Part shown: positions 14,487-23,088 of the stretch, one piece after another
Numbering within the stretch: position 1 is the first letter of the stretch
Layout of the letters: each line of letters starts with the position of its first letter
From: Owenweeksia hongkongensis DSM 17368
GTDB lineage: Bacteria; Bacteroidota; Bacteroidia; Flavobacteriales; Schleiferiaceae
Direction: 5' to 3'
Length of the DNA: 64,000 bases
Assembly (NCBI RefSeq): GCF_000236705.1
Contig: NC_016599.1
Coordinates: forward strand, 310,001 to 374,000
Notes under the pieces: generated by a model
Seen by the model: only the letters and a program-made list of their open reading frames with translations
What the model was told of the DNA's origin: nothing
The model's database searches: none
Position numbers and translations under genes: made by a program

Positions 14487-14912
14487 ATGACCAAGGAAGA
14501 AATACTAAACGAGTTCAATAAATTTTGCAAAAATACGCTGATGGAAACTTTAGAAATGAAGTTTGTAGATGTGGACAAGGAAGCGGGGATGGTAAAGATG
14601 ACGATGCCAGTAAACTCGCGTGTACATCAGCCGATGGGGCTTTTGCATGGCGGTGCTTCTGCGGCTTTAGCCGAAAGTTTGGGTAGTGCTTCTAGTTTAC
14701 TCTATGCCGACCCAAAAGAATATGCTGTTTTAGGAATCGAAATTAGTTGCAATCATTTGCGCTCCAAGCGCGATGGTGTGATTACGGGCACCGCTAATAT
14801 CATTCATAAAGGGCGAAGTACTCACCTTTGGGAAATCGTAATTCGCGATGAAGAGGAGCGAATTATTTCGCATTGTAAACTTACCAACATGATTGTGCCG
14901 CATAAAAAGTAA
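14487..14912 (+). CDS. menI: Hotdog-fold thioesterase, probable DHNA-CoA thioesterase
   Basis: A 141-residue single hotdog domain. It contains the signature QPMGLLHGGASAALAESLGS, with catalytic Glu at residue 63, as in YdiI/MenI-type 1,4-dihydroxy-2-naphthoyl-CoA thioesterases. This enzyme releases DHNA from its CoA ester before MenA in menaquinone synthesis. The paired isochorismate synthase gene starts at the last base of its stop codon (TAATG), so the two are translationally coupled, which favours the MenI assignment over a generic PaaI-like role. A possible promoter (TTG at 14411, TACTTTGG at 14431, one base off consensus) lies about 50 bp upstream. Confidence 0.8.
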   Translation: MTKEEILNEFNKFCKNTLMETLEMKFVDVDKEAGMVKMTMPVNSRVHQPMGLLHGGASAALAESLGSASSLLYADPKEYAVLGIEISCNHLRSKRDGVITGTANIIHKGRSTHLWEIVIRDEEERIISHCKLTNMIVPHKK

Positions 14913-15865
14913 TGATGCAAAAGCTCTTTATCAGTTTACCGGGTAACTCAGATTATAAAGTATACACTTCAGATTCGGGCGGTGGTTTTGCCTTTCGCTT
15001 TTCATCCTTTGAAGGGCATGAAGAGGTGAACCTAAAAATGAATCAAACCAATGACGAAAGCTTTCTTTCTGAAAACCTTGGTGGGCAACACTTTAATATT
15101 CCCACTCATGAAGAATATGTAAAGCTGGTGGAAAATACAGTGGCTCATATTCGTAAAAATGATCTGGGTAAAATTGTGATGTCACGTCCTCAAAGATTTG
15201 ACAAGATAATTGAGCCTGTTCTTGTTTTTAAAAAATTAGTAGAAGCTTATCCCACAGCCTGTGTGTATCTTTTTACGCATCCGGAAGTAGGAACGTGGAT
15301 GGGCGCTACCCCGGAAACCTTGCTCAGTAAAAAAGGGGATGTGCTAAAAACTATGAGCCTTGCCGGAACACAAAAAAAAGGTGAAGAGGATAAATTTACT
15401 GGAAAGGAAAAAATAGAGCAGGAGCTGGTCACAGATTATATCACTGAAATTCTGAATTCTGAAAAGGGAGTGGAAGGAGTGAAGGCCGAAGGCCCAATTA
15501 TAGCGGAAGCTGGAAACGTAGTCCATCTAAAAACAGCAATCGAAGCCACAGTGCAGGGAAGCTTCAATCTTTCTTCTTTGATTAAAAAGCTTCATCCAAC
15601 TCCGGCCGTTGCTGGTTTCCCTAAAAAGGAAGCATTAGAATTTATAAAGAAAAATGAGCCGTACAAGCGTAGTTTTTACGCTGGTTACTTTGGACTAAAC
15701 CAAAGAACTGACGCGCATTATTTTGTAAACCTCCGCTGCATGCAAGTCTTTCATGATTCTGTAGTTTTATATGCTGGAGGTGGTATTACCAGAGATTCAA
15801 ACCCTGAGGCGGAGTGGGAGGAGACGGAGAATAAGATGCAGACCTTATTGCAGGTTTTGAAGTAG
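14912..15865 (+). CDS. menF: Isochorismate synthase
   Basis: A 317-residue chorismate-binding enzyme converting chorismate to isochorismate, the first step of menaquinone synthesis. Visible family features are LGKIVMSRP, MGATPETLL, the Glu-rich EKIEQELV, LHPTPAVAGFP, FYAGYFG and YAGGGITRDSNPEAEWEETENK. It is shorter than MenF/EntC of enterobacteria (about 390-430) because the N-terminal region is reduced, which seems usual for Bacteroidota copies. LHPTPA is followed by VAG where most relatives have a Gly (LGG). Overlaps menI by one base. Menaquinone use, rather than a catecholate siderophore, is inferred from menI and menD. Confidence 0.88.
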   Translation: MMQKLFISLPGNSDYKVYTSDSGGGFAFRFSSFEGHEEVNLKMNQTNDESFLSENLGGQHFNIPTHEEYVKLVENTVAHIRKNDLGKIVMSRPQRFDKIIEPVLVFKKLVEAYPTACVYLFTHPEVGTWMGATPETLLSKKGDVLKTMSLAGTQKKGEEDKFTGKEKIEQELVTDYITEILNSEKGVEGVKAEGPIIAEAGNVVHLKTAIEATVQGSFNLSSLIKKLHPTPAVAGFPKKEALEFIKKNEPYKRSFYAGYFGLNQRTDAHYFVNLRCMQVFHDSVVLYAGGGITRDSNPEAEWEETENKMQTLLQVLK

Positions 15866-15913
15866 AACTATTATCCAATAGGGCCCCAGAGTTACTAATC
15901 ACAATATGAACTT

Positions 15914-16247
15914 ATGAACTACGGAGTATAGAGAGTTCCACAGAGTAGCGATGCTGAAATATTGTGTTTTGCACAGTGTGGCTCAGTGTACCCAGAGGTA
16001 ATTAATTACAGCGCGGAGTTATGAAACACGGAGTAGAGAGTTCCACAGAGTAGTGATGCTGAAATATGGCGTTTTGCTCAGTGTGACTCATTGTATTCAG
16101 TGGTAATTAATCACAGTATGAATTTATGAACCACGGAGTATACAGAGTTAGACAGAGGAAAAATCCTGATAATGCACCTTGCCCAGTGTGCTTCAGTGGT
16201 AATATTATGCCTCACAGAGTACTCAGAGTTTCGTGAAGTACAGAGCA
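15914..16247 (+). repeat. Cluster of imperfect palindromic repeat units, left of the GxxExxY gene
   Basis: Three related units (about 15914-16002, 16021-16107, 16126-16204) and a fragment (16210-16247). Each starts ATGAA(C/A)(C/T)ACGGAGTA, runs through GAGTTCCACAGAG or a variant, has a variable middle of about 30 bases, then CTCAGTGTGACTCATTG-like sequence and CAGTGGTAATT. The right part is roughly the reverse complement of the left part, so each unit can fold into a hairpin with arms of about 28 bases. Together with the cluster at 16751-17013 they flank the GxxExxY gene. No coding potential is apparent in the 408-bp gap after menF. Confidence 0.8.
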
Positions 16248-16273
16248 ATAAATCCGAATCCTTTGCGCCTATT

Positions 16274-16651
16274 CTAGAGAACAATTCTCCTTATCCCAGC
16301 TTTCATAGATTTCACATTGAAATTTAGAAGTAAGCCTACTTTACATTCAGTCAATTTCAGATAAGTCATTATTTGAGCCATATGTATGTTTTGAAGTGCA
16401 CTTATAGATTTTACTTCAACAATCACCTTCTTTTCTACATATAGGTCGATTCTATATCCACAGTCAAGTCTCACATCTTTATAATCTAAAGGAAGGGCAA
16501 ACTGCTTGTCAACCAACAGTCCGGTTTGAAGTAATTCATAATAAAGGCATTCTTCGTAAGCATTTTCAAGTAAACCAGGTCCCAAATTGGTGTGCACTTC
16601 CATTGCGCATCTAATTATTTCACCAGTAAGGTTTGAGTGTATATAGTGCAT
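16274..16651 (-). CDS. GxxExxY family protein
   Basis: A 125-residue protein with the family-naming motif G-LL-E-NA-Y (GPGLLENAYEECLYYEL) near residues 24-40, then VDKQFALPLDY, CGYRIDLYVEKKVIVEVKS and a C-terminal LKLTECKVGLLLNFN. The spacing of D (RIDLYV) and EVK (VIVEVK) resembles a PD-(D/E)xK nuclease core, which makes a DNA-acting enzyme plausible; this is inference and no activity is established. It lies on the minus strand inside two clusters of palindromic repeats and separates menF from menD, suggesting a mobile or repeat-associated gene. The start codon is the ATG 16 bp before the hydrophobic-free N-terminus MHYIHSNLTGEII. Confidence 0.85.
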   Translation of the reverse strand: MHYIHSNLTGEIIRCAMEVHTNLGPGLLENAYEECLYYELLQTGLLVDKQFALPLDYKDVRLDCGYRIDLYVEKKVIVEVKSISALQNIHMAQIMTYLKLTECKVGLLLNFNVKSMKAGIRRIVL

Positions 16652-16750
16652 TATTGTTGAGTTTTGGTTGTTGAAAAGTTATAAAACTAATCTCAAGTGT
16701 TTTTTATCGGAGCTCTGCGCTCCAAGGTTTAGAGTGTATTACGGATAGTT

Positions 16751-17013
16751 ATGAACCACTGAGTATAAAGAGTTTCACAGAGGTGTGATGTTGAAATATT
16801 GTGCTTTGCTCGGTGTGACTCAGTGTACCCAGAGGTAATTAATAACAGCGCGGGGTTATGAACCACTGAGTATAGAGAGTTCCACAGAGGAGGAATGCTG
16901 ATTTTGTGTCTTTCTCAGTGTGACTCATTTCACTCAGTGGTAATTTGGGTATTGCGTATAGTTATGAACCACAGAGTTCAGAGAGTTTCACAGAGGTGCT
17001 GCACTATACTCAG
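16751..17013 (+). repeat. Cluster of imperfect palindromic repeat units, right of the GxxExxY gene
   Basis: Two full units (16751-16840 and 16858-16945) and one truncated unit (16964-17013) of the same family as 15914-16247, in the same orientation: ATGAACCACTGAGTATA, GAGTTTCACAGAGG, a variable middle, CTCAGTGTGACTCA, and GTGGTAATT. A decayed stretch with ACTCAGCG and GCACAGCGG continues to about 17100. These fill most of the 517-bp gap between the GxxExxY gene and menD. Confidence 0.8.
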
Positions 17014-17103
17014 GCAAACGTTGAGCATTCAGGGGTGTTTTTTATCAAAGGTCACTCAGCGTTATTTTTGTTTTAAAAGAGAAGCACAGCGGTGAATTTC
17101 CTC

Positions 17104-17168: not shown

Positions 17169-18851
17169 ATTAAAACTTCAGATAAGCTCAATGCCCAGTA
17201 TCTAGGGCAACTTTTAAAGCAGCATAATTGTAAAACGGTGGTGATAGCGCCAGGTAGCCGTAATGCTCCTTTGATTATCACTTTTACAAACGATTCCGAT
17301 TATCGCTGTATTTCGGTGCCCGATGAGCGCGTGGCGGCATTCACGGCCATGGGACTTACATTAGAAAAACGCGAACCTGTTGCCGTGATTTGTAGTTCAG
17401 GCTCAGCAGCGGTTAATTTTTATCCAGCAGTGGTAGAGGCTTTTTATCAAAAGCTCCCATTAGTTGTAATCACTGCAGATAGACCGATTGAGTTGATAGA
17501 CCAAGGAATTGGCCAGGCGATTCGTCAGCCCAATGTGTTTACAACCCATATTGTTAAAGACTTTGATCTTATCCGTGAGCCGGCTGATGAGCTGGCCAAA
17601 AACTTCAATCAAAGAAGTATAAATGAAGCTTTGCTGGCTACTAAGCATGGCCCCGTTCATATCAATGTTCCTTTTGACGAACCCCTTTATGGAACAACTG
17701 AGGAGCAGGTGGAAGCTCAGTATATTGATGAAACTTTGGGGAATAGAACGCTTTCCAACACCAAGGTCGAGCAGCTTTCCTCCATTTGGAATGAAGCTCC
17801 TAAAATTTGGGTGCTAGCAGGACAAATGCTTCCTGATAGTGAGCTGGAAGAAATTCTAACTTCCCTAAACCAAAAAAGTCCTTTCCTTATATTTTCTGAA
17901 TCGCTGAGCAACCTGCACTGTGCGTGTAATATTCACTCTATTGACAGGTTGATTAATACAATTAGTGAGGAAGAAAAAGAAGCGCTTTGCCCTGACCTTC
18001 TGATAAGCATAGGTGGAGAGGTAGTGAGCAAAATGGTGAAGAAATTCTTACGCACTTTCAAGCCAAAACATCATTGGTATGTGAATGAAGCCACGGAATT
18101 TCAAGATACTTATGGAGCCTTGACGGATCACGTTCAGGTACATCCTGCTTTGTTTTTTAAAGATTTGATGGGTTTTACAAAGCCAAAATCGAGTGATTAT
18201 CGGGATGATTTTTTGGCAAAAGACCAGAAGAGAATGGCCAAGCATGCCGAGTTTGTGAATAAAGCGCAGTTTTCGGACATGGCTGCTTTTCGCGAAATAT
18301 TGAAGCACTTACCTAAAGATTCTATTTTGCACTGTGCCAATAGTACCTCTATTCGCTATTCACAGCTTTTTGACCATGAAGAGTCCATCTTGCATTATGC
18401 CAATCGTGGTACTAGTGGAATTGACGGTTGCACGTCTACAGCTATTGGCCATGCCATAACTACCGATAAAATGGTTACTCTGATTACCGGTGATGTTGCC
18501 TTTCTTTATGATTCCAATGCTTTTTGGAATGATGAGTTACCGGATAATTTACGAGTGATTGTTCTGAACAATAATGGTGGAAATATCTTCCGTATTATTG
18601 AAGGGCCGGATAAAAATGAAGACTTTGAGCGTTTTCAGGAGACTATTCACAATGTGAAGTTGCAGGGCGTGGCTACCACATTCGGGCTAAGCTTTACAAG
18701 TGTATCTGATGAAGGAAAACTGCAACAAGTTCTGTCAAGCTTTTTTGCCCCGGAAGGAGGCATAAAGGTTCTGGAAATACAAACGCCACGCATTGAAAGT
18801 CCCGAGGTGCTGAAAAACTACTGGGCATTTTTAAGAAATGGATTTAAGTAA
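17169..18851 (+). CDS. menD: SEPHCHC synthase (2-succinyl-5-enolpyruvyl-6-hydroxy-3-cyclohexene-1-carboxylate synthase)
   Basis: Thiamine-diphosphate enzyme joining isochorismate and 2-oxoglutarate in menaquinone synthesis. Family motifs: VIAPGSRNAPL, EREP-like KREPVAVICSSGSAA, PLVVITADRP, the Q-N-rich DQGIGQAIRQPNVF, GPVHINVPFDEPL, NRGTSGIDGCTSTAIGHA and the ThDP motif ITGDVAFLYD ... NNNGGNIF. Coding similarity begins at SDKLNAQYLGQLLKQH, upstream of the GTG codons at 17235 and 17238. No ATG, GTG or TTG lies between the in-frame stop (17154-17156) and that helix; the ATT at 17169 is the best available start and gives about 560 residues, the usual MenD length. The gene overlaps the next gene by 14 bases. 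Confidence 0.88.
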   Translation: MKTSDKLNAQYLGQLLKQHNCKTVVIAPGSRNAPLIITFTNDSDYRCISVPDERVAAFTAMGLTLEKREPVAVICSSGSAAVNFYPAVVEAFYQKLPLVVITADRPIELIDQGIGQAIRQPNVFTTHIVKDFDLIREPADELAKNFNQRSINEALLATKHGPVHINVPFDEPLYGTTEEQVEAQYIDETLGNRTLSNTKVEQLSSIWNEAPKIWVLAGQMLPDSELEEILTSLNQKSPFLIFSESLSNLHCACNIHSIDRLINTISEEEKEALCPDLLISIGGEVVSKMVKKFLRTFKPKHHWYVNEATEFQDTYGALTDHVQVHPALFFKDLMGFTKPKSSDYRDDFLAKDQKRMAKHAEFVNKAQFSDMAAFREILKHLPKDSILHCANSTSIRYSQLFDHEESILHYANRGTSGIDGCTSTAIGHAITTDKMVTLITGDVAFLYDSNAFWNDELPDNLRVIVLNNNGGNIFRIIEGPDKNEDFERFQETIHNVKLQGVATTFGLSFTSVSDEGKLQQVLSSFFAPEGGIKVLEIQTPRIESPEVLKNYWAFLRNGFK

Positions 18852-21478: not shown

Positions 21479-23080
21479 ATGCAGCACAAACGCTTTCAGC
21501 GGTTTTCTCCAGATATTGATTTTTCAGACGTTGACCACATTGTTATAGGCTCTGGCATTGGCGGTCTTACCGCTGCTACCTGGTTAGCCAAATGTGGACA
21601 GAAAGTAGTGGTTCTCGAGCGCCATTATGTTCCTGGTGGTTTCACTCATAGTTTCAAAAGAAAGCAAGGTTTTAATTGGGATGTAGGCGTTCACTATGTT
21701 GGCAATTTGGAAGAAGGCGGTTCTATGCGCGGCATGTTTGACTTGCTAAGCAACAAAAAGCTGGAATGGGAACCCATGGGTGAAGTGTATGATGTGGTTC
21801 AGATTGGCGATGACGTGTATGAGTTTAAAGCCGGTAAAGAGAATTTTAGGAAGCAAATGATTGGCTATTTTCCAAATGAGGAAAAGGCAATTGACGACTA
21901 TTTGGAGTTACTCAAAAAATCAAATAAATGGGGAAGTGCTTTCTTTTTTGAAAAGAGCTTCAAACCATTTTTGAGCAAGTCTTTGGGTTGGTTTATTCGC
22001 AAGTTTTATAAAAAGTATTCTCAGCAAACTACCCTGGAAGTACTGAGTAAAATCACTACGAACAAGAGGCTGATAGCAGTGCTTTGTGGCCAATGTGGTA
22101 ATTATGGTTTATCACCAAGGCACAGCAGCTTTGGTGCGCATGCTTTGGTAATCGGTCACTTTATGGAGGGCGGTTATTACCCAAAAGGCGGATCGGAGCA
22201 AATCGCATTGAAAACTATTGACACCTTACACGAGCTAGGAAGCGAAGTATATATAAATGCTGATGTTTCAGAAATTGTGACTAAGGGAAGCCGTGTGAAA
22301 GGTGTAATGGTGGGGGAAACTTTTATTCCCTGTAAAAGTGTGATAAGCGGAGTGGGAGTAAATAATACTTTCAATCACCTTTTGAAAAATGGAGCAAGCA
22401 AAACCTGTGATTTTAACCTTGAGACTGTAAAACCGGCTACCGGACATATTTGCTTGTATGTAGGCTTGGACAAATCCAGCGAAGAGCTTAATCTGCCAAA
22501 GCATAACTTGTGGTGGTATGCAAATGAAAATATTGATGCGACTTTTGACAATATGACTTTGAAAGATGCACCGGATAAGTTTGCTTACATATCTTTTCCG
22601 TCAGCCAAAGATCCTAAATGGGAAGAAACGAATGCGGGAACAGCCACTATTCAGGCAATTTCTAAAGCCAATTATGAATGGTTTGCAAAATATGAGGATC
22701 AACCTTGGATGAAAAGGGATGATGAGTACAAAAAGTTGAAGGAGGAATTCAAGGACGGAATGCTGGAGAGGCTATACAACCTATATCCACAAATCAAAGG
22801 ACATGTAGCTGTTACTGAGGTTTCATCACCTCTTTCTACCAAACATTTTTCCAATTATAAAAAAGGAGAGATTTATGGTTTGGATCATACCCCTGATCGT
22901 TTTGACCTTTCTTTTTTAAGACCTGAAACCAAAATAAAAGGTCTTCGACTCACAGGGCAGGATATTACTTTGGTGGGTGTAGCAGGGGCCATGCTTTCGG
23001 GTATGCTTGTCGCAATTACTATACTCAAATTTCGCGTGTGGCGAATTTTCAAGGAAATTGGCGAACTTCAAAAGAAATAG
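21479..23080 (+). CDS. Retinol saturase/phytoene desaturase-like FAD oxidoreductase
   Basis: A 533-residue flavoprotein. The FAD-binding Rossmann motif is VIGSGIGGLTAATWLAKCG (residues about 22-40), followed by VVLERHYVPGGFTHSF and GFNWDVGVHYVG, as in all-trans-retinol 13,14-reductases and CrtI-like enzymes. The C-terminus has the family glycine-rich FAD segment (LRLTGQDITLVGVAGAMLSG). It likely saturates or desaturates a polyene lipid such as a carotenoid or retinoid; the substrate is unknown and no carotenoid cluster is adjacent. A -7-like TATATTTG (21452-21459) lies 20 bp upstream of the ATG. Confidence 0.85.
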   Translation: MQHKRFQRFSPDIDFSDVDHIVIGSGIGGLTAATWLAKCGQKVVVLERHYVPGGFTHSFKRKQGFNWDVGVHYVGNLEEGGSMRGMFDLLSNKKLEWEPMGEVYDVVQIGDDVYEFKAGKENFRKQMIGYFPNEEKAIDDYLELLKKSNKWGSAFFFEKSFKPFLSKSLGWFIRKFYKKYSQQTTLEVLSKITTNKRLIAVLCGQCGNYGLSPRHSSFGAHALVIGHFMEGGYYPKGGSEQIALKTIDTLHELGSEVYINADVSEIVTKGSRVKGVMVGETFIPCKSVISGVGVNNTFNHLLKNGASKTCDFNLETVKPATGHICLYVGLDKSSEELNLPKHNLWWYANENIDATFDNMTLKDAPDKFAYISFPSAKDPKWEETNAGTATIQAISKANYEWFAKYEDQPWMKRDDEYKKLKEEFKDGMLERLYNLYPQIKGHVAVTEVSSPLSTKHFSNYKKGEIYGLDHTPDRFDLSFLRPETKIKGLRLTGQDITLVGVAGAMLSGMLVAITILKFRVWRIFKEIGELQKK

Positions 23081-23088
23081 GCGATCAC

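Follow-up and report, generated by a model that had tools for sequence, protein, structure and literature searches.

The window, the 64,000-nt stretch of Owenweeksia hongkongensis DSM 17368 that we analyzed (positions 310001–374000 of a 4,000,057-base genome in one contig, over which the genome-wide searches were run), contains a gene for a GxxExxY protein of 125 aa on the minus strand (16274..16651; PF13366, E = 3e-42; TIGR04256, E = 4.5e-44). Its upstream neighbor is a menF-like gene for a chorismate-binding enzyme (14912..15865, plus strand; PF00425, E = 3e-61) and its downstream neighbor a menD-like gene for a TPP enzyme (17238..18851, plus strand, start codon uncertain; PF02776/PF02775), and the GxxExxY gene is antisense to both. 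It sits in a 625-nt step that separates two triplets of a 50-nt core, which recurs in six copies at a spacing of 105–107 nt, three on each side, and tandem-repeat scores reach 326 on one side and 285 on the other. A 29-nt pattern derived from the window's own repeat copies matched five times in the window at up to three mismatches, compared with no match in 100 shuffles.

A full unit is a palindrome of ~81–91 nt with CAC.GAG-type words on one arm and CTC.GTG-type words on the inverted arm, and all units are annotated on the plus strand. Three units and a single arm occupy one side of the gene: unit 1 (15915..16005; arm ~15917–15945, inverted arm ~15972–16003), unit 2 (16022..16110; arm ~16024–16050, inverted arm ~16077–16108), unit 3 (16127..16207; arm 16129–16157, shorter inverted arm ~16182–16205), and, near the 3′ end of the gene and thus downstream in gene orientation, the single arm (16209..16245), whose words at 16213–16245 read CACAGAG, CTCAGAG, CGTGAAG, and TACAGAG, three of them with one mismatch. 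On the other side lie unit 4 (16752..16842; repeat core and arm words), unit 5 (16859..16947), and an incomplete unit (16965..17034; arm 16967–16995, second arm degenerate); a clear adjacent upstream arm is absent at this gene. The locus is a cluster of units of the gene-less type described below, together with a resident gene that is unusually antisense to its neighbors. Elsewhere in the window, an imperfect short tandem repeat of 20 nt lies at 23039–23084, close to where a reading frame ends.

A sequence-only reading had reported, within 15914–17013, six to seven imperfect copies of a unit of about 80–90 bases in the same orientation on both sides of the gene, each able to fold into a hairpin. 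The flanking by equally oriented imperfect repeats is borne out by the six core copies, and the palindrome length was close, whereas the period is longer than the unit, the copies resolve into five two-armed units and two single or partial arms, and the feature extends more widely, over about 15885–17034. The hairpins did not hold up. When the seven stretches were folded as single-stranded DNA, only unit 5 clearly beat its shuffles (z = −2.2, 5 of 200 shuffles), with the other six at z = −1.3 to +0.6, so that “hairpin” is the wrong description of these units, and we rejected a strong hairpin as the functional unit. No Rfam family reached its gathering score within the window. The palindromy instead resides in short words: A degenerate word recurs in steps of ~10 nt, in arrays that are inverted relative to each other.

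We compared the men loci of relatives and found that presence varies at this junction. MenD was detected in all 20 relatives searched, and the upstream junction was inspected in 17 of them. A menF-like end directly precedes menD in 15 of these, namely in two other species of the genus (G002 and G003, whose MenD is only 55–61% identical to that of the window genome) and in 13 others of the family; a different gene lies upstream of menD in one, and in the remaining one, G001 (MenD 97% identical), the array and the gene are present at the menF-menD junction. The inserted state proposed earlier is thus supported, with the junction occupied in the window genome and one sister species and empty in 15 relatives.

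A predicted minimal Cas4-like nuclease

The window protein scored 149.5 bits against TIGR04256 (cut-off 35) and 144.1 bits against PF13366 (PDDEXK_3; cut-off 22). PDDEXK_3 was the sole domain found, and the search returned no HUH tyrosine transposase (IS200/IS605 type) or other transposase domain. Across 201 proteins, D69 and E79 are conserved at 100%, K81 at 99.5%, Q93 at 99%, and Y97 at 98.5%, yielding a D...ExK...QxxxY motif that is presumably the one of Cas4 and RecB-like nucleases. An AlphaFold model of 117 residues (pLDDT 96.7) had its best structural match in SSO0001 (Z 9.8, rmsd 3.2, 96 residues), which we take to be a Cas4 protein, followed by matches of intermediate score, the Hjc resolvase (Z 7.3) among them; restriction-endonuclease-like matches were returned as well. 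Foldseek alone gave no structural match with E below 0.001, a sequence search of the PDB gave no relative at E 1, and Cas4 profiles were weakly similar, with E from about 1e-4. The near-invariant D, ExK, and QxxxY columns and the SSO0001 match support the prediction, made earlier from a D...EVK pattern, of a PD-(D/E)xK-type nuclease, which on sequence and model grounds would be a minimal, Cas4-like member of that superfamily. Cas4 proteins hold an Fe-S cluster with four cysteines, whereas the GxxExxY protein is only ~125 aa long and lacks conserved cysteines of this kind: None was found among the invariant or near-invariant columns of 29 proteins or among the columns conserved at ≥97% in the 201. 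Of the 296 genomes sampled from the window's phylum, 151 had at least one GxxExxY gene; a plasmid search with the window protein matched 8 of 72,556 records, and a phage search gave no match.

Inverted word arrays beside GxxExxY genes

The window genome has exactly one other GxxExxY gene. The window unit has no match elsewhere in the genome, this second locus included, so the expectation that the same unit recurs at other GxxExxY loci did not stand in its literal form; the second locus nevertheless has arms of the same pattern, made of another word, CGCAAAG. In its general form, an arm consists of CRCNRAK words (C, A/G, C, any base, A/G, A, G/T), usually two to four per arm, that read on the sense strand upstream of the gene and on the antisense strand downstream. 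This motif was written after inspection of 29 loci of the window genome (two loci) and its relatives, from which the partial matches L025 and L026 were excluded, and was then tested on two hold-out sets, namely 60 further loci of the phylum (chosen among the top scores, with one locus per genome) and 80 loci from named genomes (the best 80 of at least 574 confirmed matches), both of which lean towards high-scoring proteins. Among the 169 loci in total, L068 and L191 are identical and probably one record twice, and one gene was used at each of the two-gene loci L084, L109, and L112.

Defining a chain as at least two words 8–12 nt apart within 200 nt of the gene, we found chains on the upstream sense strand at 111 of 169 loci and on the downstream antisense strand at 108, compared with 37 and 26 of 169 on the opposite strands and with 10 of 1014 per strand (1%) in control windows from the same loci. 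The hold-outs showed a chain on the expected strand on either side at 50/60 and 66/80 loci (116/140), and on both sides at 33/60 and 37/80. The association between gene and array is thus general and reaches beyond the window. Palindromic intergenic repeats are common in bacteria, and ordinary terminator- or REP-type palindromes could lie near a common small gene by chance, as might fit the arrays that have no gene nearby. Yet, the ~65-fold excess over control windows on the expected strands, as well as the word-protein covariation and genome-level co-occurrence described below, contradict such a coincidence, which we consider very improbable.

CRCNRAK ranked first (score 186) among 400 sampled letter permutations, ahead of the overlapping CNCRRAK (160) and then a score of 62, with a median of 1. 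Inverted similarity of the two flanks (score ≥34) was found at 85 of 169 loci, compared with 54 of 1690 pairs from different loci and, for shifted positions, 2 of 840, and the order of the words matches between the arms, with a best register shift of 0 in 54 of 93 loci. Among the 80 named-genome loci, a chain on at least one side was present at 44 of 58 Bacteroidota loci and at all 22 non-Bacteroidota loci, the latter including Chloroflexota (6), Ignavibacteriota (5), Pseudomonadota (4), one unplaced locus, and one each from Acidobacteriota, Spirochaetota, Cyanobacteriota, Verrucomicrobiota, Planctomycetota, and Balneolota. A chain within 300 nt was absent on both sides at 29 of 169 loci, a good part of which have visible arms made of variant words. 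By eye, the clade of L017, L019, and L023 (GNGFQE) has apparent inverted TGATT-type arms with GTCTGAA-like ends replacing CRCNRAK, and restriction- or helicase-type genes apparently lie alongside L017 and L019 at least.

The word also changes with the type of protein. On the protein tree (n = 169), the majority base at word position 7 required 6 changes, compared with 16.3 after shuffling (0 of 1000 shuffles as good; 139 loci), position 2 required 19 compared with 37.1 (0 of 1000; 126 loci), and position 5 required 20 compared with 35.0 (0 of 1000; 117 loci), whereas position 4 did not track the tree (31 changes compared with 33.5; 50 of 1000 shuffles as good). Among the 139 labeled loci, GxGL proteins had G-words in 119 of 125 cases and GxGF proteins had T-words in 11 of 12. 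The protein probably recognizes the words of its arms.

Adjacent words are mostly 9–10 nt apart, two steps span 21 nt, and three steps 31 nt, with a phase fit of 10.9 (bootstrap 10.75–11.1), i.e., a step near the helical turn that by itself does not set B-DNA apart from other explanations. Inverted arms on both sides of a codirectionally inserted gene would also suit a role at the RNA level, with the arms pairing in the operon mRNA and thereby insulating or processing the inserted gene. Mismatches between arms, however, showed no G-U bias (200 wobble-compatible compared with 205 incompatible transitions, 102 loci), on which ground RNA-type pairing was rejected as a candidate, and the single fold above shuffles and the Rfam result in the window, where units were folded as DNA strands, point the same way; we regard this explanation as highly improbable. 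The missing G-U bias and the near-helical step together favor, without proving, recognition of double-stranded DNA.

Gene-less arrays and turnover of insertion sites

A strict three-word pattern matched 11 times in the window genome, always away from both GxxExxY genes, and its reversed form matched 0 times. Two overlapping matches (L226/L227, C1:1737555–1737594) fall in an apparently coding short tandem repeat, CACCAATATTT; by eye, the remaining ones are gene-less, either paired or single arms. Such gene-less units consist of an arm and an inverted arm, often near 90 bp in total, and share genomes with GxxExxY genes. Across 295 genomes besides G000, the 150 gene-positive ones had a median of 8 array matches (mean 19.8), compared with a median of 0 (mean 1.5) in the 145 gene-negative ones, and at least five matches occurred in 91/150 and 8/145 genomes, respectively. 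The units are thus not equally common in genomes without the gene, a comparison that the sequence-only reading had proposed as a test. Matches next to the genes are part of these totals, and overlapping matches enter them as separate matches. The gene-adjacent share was estimated at ~1.1 matches per gene (60 loci, 300 nt), which, with 521 gene copies, places most of the 2971 matches elsewhere; after subtracting this share, gene-positive genomes retained a median of 3.7 and a mean of 15.9, with at least five matches in 69 of 150. When gene presence was shuffled within 20 families, the observed rank sum of the raw counts was reached in 1 of 1000 shuffles. We read 12 array stretches in other genomes, and 10 of them had no GxxExxY match. 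A strict match was absent in 27 of the 150 gene-positive genomes, and the gene-negative G213 and G204 are rich in array matches. Three stretches of G213 (L306–L308) hold arrays of two to three words in one orientation, repeated at ~131 nt (L306) or wider spacing, in which we found neither an inverted partner nor a GxxExxY match.

We followed the insertion at L117 through the genus g21, which we take for Flavobacterium because the neighbors of the named Flavobacterium locus L180 are 93–94% identical to those of L117. The upstream flank of this insertion was present in 249 of 249 g21 genomes. Among the best 70 of the matching places (69 genomes), 17 held one version of the gene (type I), 22 an unrelated version (type II; 33–41% identical to type I in 12 aligned cases), and 31 no gene. 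G-type words accompanied type I in 17/17 cases and T-type words accompanied type II in 22/22. Among 16 aligned type I arm sequences, variation is almost confined to positions 2, 4, and 5 in most words, with the fourth left word as an exception; among 21 aligned type II arms, it lies mainly at positions 4 and 5. At 20 of the 31 gene-less loci, the gap is at most 30 nt, with a word-like relic in one (L300), and several of the other 11 retain relics of arms. The empty site contains, by eye, at best one imperfect word, CCCGAAT. At L237, L264, L287, and L289, the left type I arm is kept in whole or in part, with no GxxExxY gene and other sequence next to it, and an unrelated reading frame starts soon after the arm at L237 and L264. 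The intergenic stretches of L270 and L278 contain arm relics and, at the place of the gene, a different long palindrome of the CTGCAAGGTTTTCAAAACCTTG type.

The three states required 27 changes on the tree of the adjacent gene, compared with a shuffled mean of 28.0, and the nearest neighbor (median difference 8%) had the same state in 17 of 59 cases, compared with a shuffled mean of 19.0, even though the two flanking genes are concordant in their distances (r = 0.81, 66 loci). No link was thus detected between the state of the site (empty, type I, or type II) and the phylogeny of the adjacent gene: With adjacent genes differing by only ~8%, species have the site empty or occupied, or hold different, unrelated versions. 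Within a type, the distances of element and flank correlate (r = 0.73 and 0.62), meaning that much of the descent is vertical and that frequent loss could take the place of homing.

Other sites show related patterns. A second site, which we take to lie between thiG and thiH, was detected in 62 of 120 genomes; among the best 30 of these, inspected by eye, 17 have the gene together with words of the CGCAGAT type, 11 carry arrays of the CGCAAAG or CACAAAG type in the same position but no gene, one has a relic, and one is apparently empty. A third site is occupied in two species of the window's genus by genes whose proteins share only 36% identity and whose words differ (L002 and L012). Some sites have a GxxExxY gene at the same junction in several genera. 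Protein pairs with at least 85% identity shared at least one neighboring gene in 20 of 20 cases, which overlap in membership and are not all independent; below 85%, including the range of 72–85%, many pairs lie at different sites. Among directed same-site pairs, the best-matching protein lay at another site in 25 of 68. The longest direct repeats outside the arms average 5.3 nt, compared with 4.8 nt in mismatched pairs (43 loci), giving no clear target-site duplication, with L198 (a 16-nt direct repeat) as an exception.

Where both neighbors are codirectional (taking the longest frame within 1300 nt on each side), the GxxExxY gene runs with them at 119 of 128 loci and against them at 9, of which the window gene is one. 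Median dN/dS of open-frame genes was 0.07 for type I (32 pairs) and 0.05 for type II (86 pairs), and the genes are thus under strong purifying selection, with dN/dS of about 0.06. Open frames of at least 100 residues were found in 13 of the 17 type I genes and 19 of the 22 type II genes; some copies carry stop codons. A nuclease that serves the host in repair or defense, with the arms as its operators and the scattered arrays as a regulon or as chromosomal marks, would fit the strong selection, the sense orientation, the weak similarity to Cas4 profiles, and the shared junctions across genera. Downstream arms are, however, as frequent as upstream ones (108 compared with 111) and would be needless for an operator; the shuffled-like occupancy between close species fits a stable host function poorly, as do the stop codons of some copies and the presence of more than one version at a single site. 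We judge a host-serving role to be improbable.

A proposed homing-like element with two parts

We propose, with about an even chance of being right, that the GxxExxY gene and its iteron arms form a two-part, homing-like selfish element with gene-less derivatives. This proposal builds on the observed association, word-protein coupling, genome-level co-occurrence, site turnover, and purifying selection. A typical element has an arm of usually two to four words, a nuclease gene of ~125 codons, and an arm of the same kind in inverted orientation. The protein would bind double-stranded DNA at its words, which would form helically phased sites, and would cut there, nearby, or at a target that resembles a word, upon which host recombination via the flanking genes would fill empty alleles in a homing-like manner. 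Rarer jumps would carry the element to new sites, and gene-less units may persist or spread in trans and then degenerate. The selfish or mobile unit suggested by the sequence-only reading is in this respect partly supported, as we infer recognition and movement from sequence comparison. Several observations run against the proposal: A homing enzyme should recognize the empty allele, yet the words lie mainly inside the element; site fidelity is incomplete, as the 25 of 68 same-site pairs illustrate; and array-rich genomes without the gene (8/145) and gene-positive genomes without a strict match (27/150) both exist. The loci that lack a chain (29 of 169), the independence of word position 4 from the protein tree, the vertical share of descent within each type, and the antisense window gene with no clear upstream arm also count against it.

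The element might instead behave like a transposon, with the nuclease excising or nicking at the arms as terminal inverted repeats and reinserting the DNA, and with the gene-less units being MITE-like, comparable to REPIN/RAYT. The bracketing of the gene by inverted arms, their corresponding word order (shift 0 in 54/93), the dispersed gene-less arrays (10 of the 12 stretches), their co-occurrence with the gene at the level of genomes, and the many protein pairs of 72–85% identity at different sites all agree with this. Against it stand the lack of a clear target-site duplication and the retention of the site by close relatives (20/20 pairs at ≥85% identity), and we know of no strand-transfer chemistry for a lone PD-(D/E)xK nuclease. 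We consider transposon-like movement unlikely.

Several known systems resemble the element in part. In REPIN/RAYT systems, dispersed extragenic palindromic units flank an enzyme gene and are described as nonautonomous mobile DNA, as far as covered in the accessible parts of PMC3116915 and PMC3733652. The GxxExxY system likewise ties dispersed palindromic units to an enzyme gene, with gene-less units linked to gene presence, but it has a PD-(D/E)xK nuclease rather than an HUH tyrosine transposase and arrays of ~10-nt degenerate words rather than GTAG-tagged hairpins; several word/protein types exist, and close relatives keep the insertion site. The free-standing homing genes of phage T4 (seg and mob) are lone endonuclease genes in intergenic positions between conserved genes (PMC2988022, in the part accessible). 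Like them, the GxxExxY gene has empty as well as occupied junctions among relatives, as at the 70 loci of the g21 site, and some of its copies carry stop codons, whereas inverted iteron arms and gene-less derivatives are absent from the accessible part of that description, and the T4 enzymes are of the GIY-YIG and HNH types, unlike the PD-(D/E)xK protein here. With insertion sequences and MITEs, the element has in common a gene between inverted ends and short gene-less relatives, but it has no transposase domain or clear target-site duplication, and its ends are degenerate word arrays instead of a fixed sequence. The GxxExxY element thus resembles REPIN/RAYT systems in its layout and free-standing homing genes in its use of sites, but it lacks features that define three known kinds: the HUH transposase of REPtrons, the transposase and target duplication of insertion sequences, and the cysteines of Cas4.

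In the literature searched, which lay mostly outside subscription journals and includes the accessible parts of PMC8934634, PMC12085832, and PMC9756366, GxxExxY proteins are named for their motif, their role is not described, and neither is the gene-array association. We tentatively raise the possibility of a novel class of selfish DNA spread over many phyla, in which the sole gene of an autonomous element encodes a minimal Cas4-like nuclease and the ends are inverted CRCNRAK arrays, with helically spaced words, that this nuclease reads, with different types reading different words, with gene-less elements moved in trans, and with unrelated types that compete for the same intergenic docking sites. 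If true, a very common, uncharacterized small nuclease would be the engine of a mobile element, and its cognate sequences could be read from the genome beside each gene. The many natural protein/word pairs would make such a protein-DNA code testable at once, and would provide a compact nuclease-site pair for study. The element may also explain a large set of intergenic repeats.
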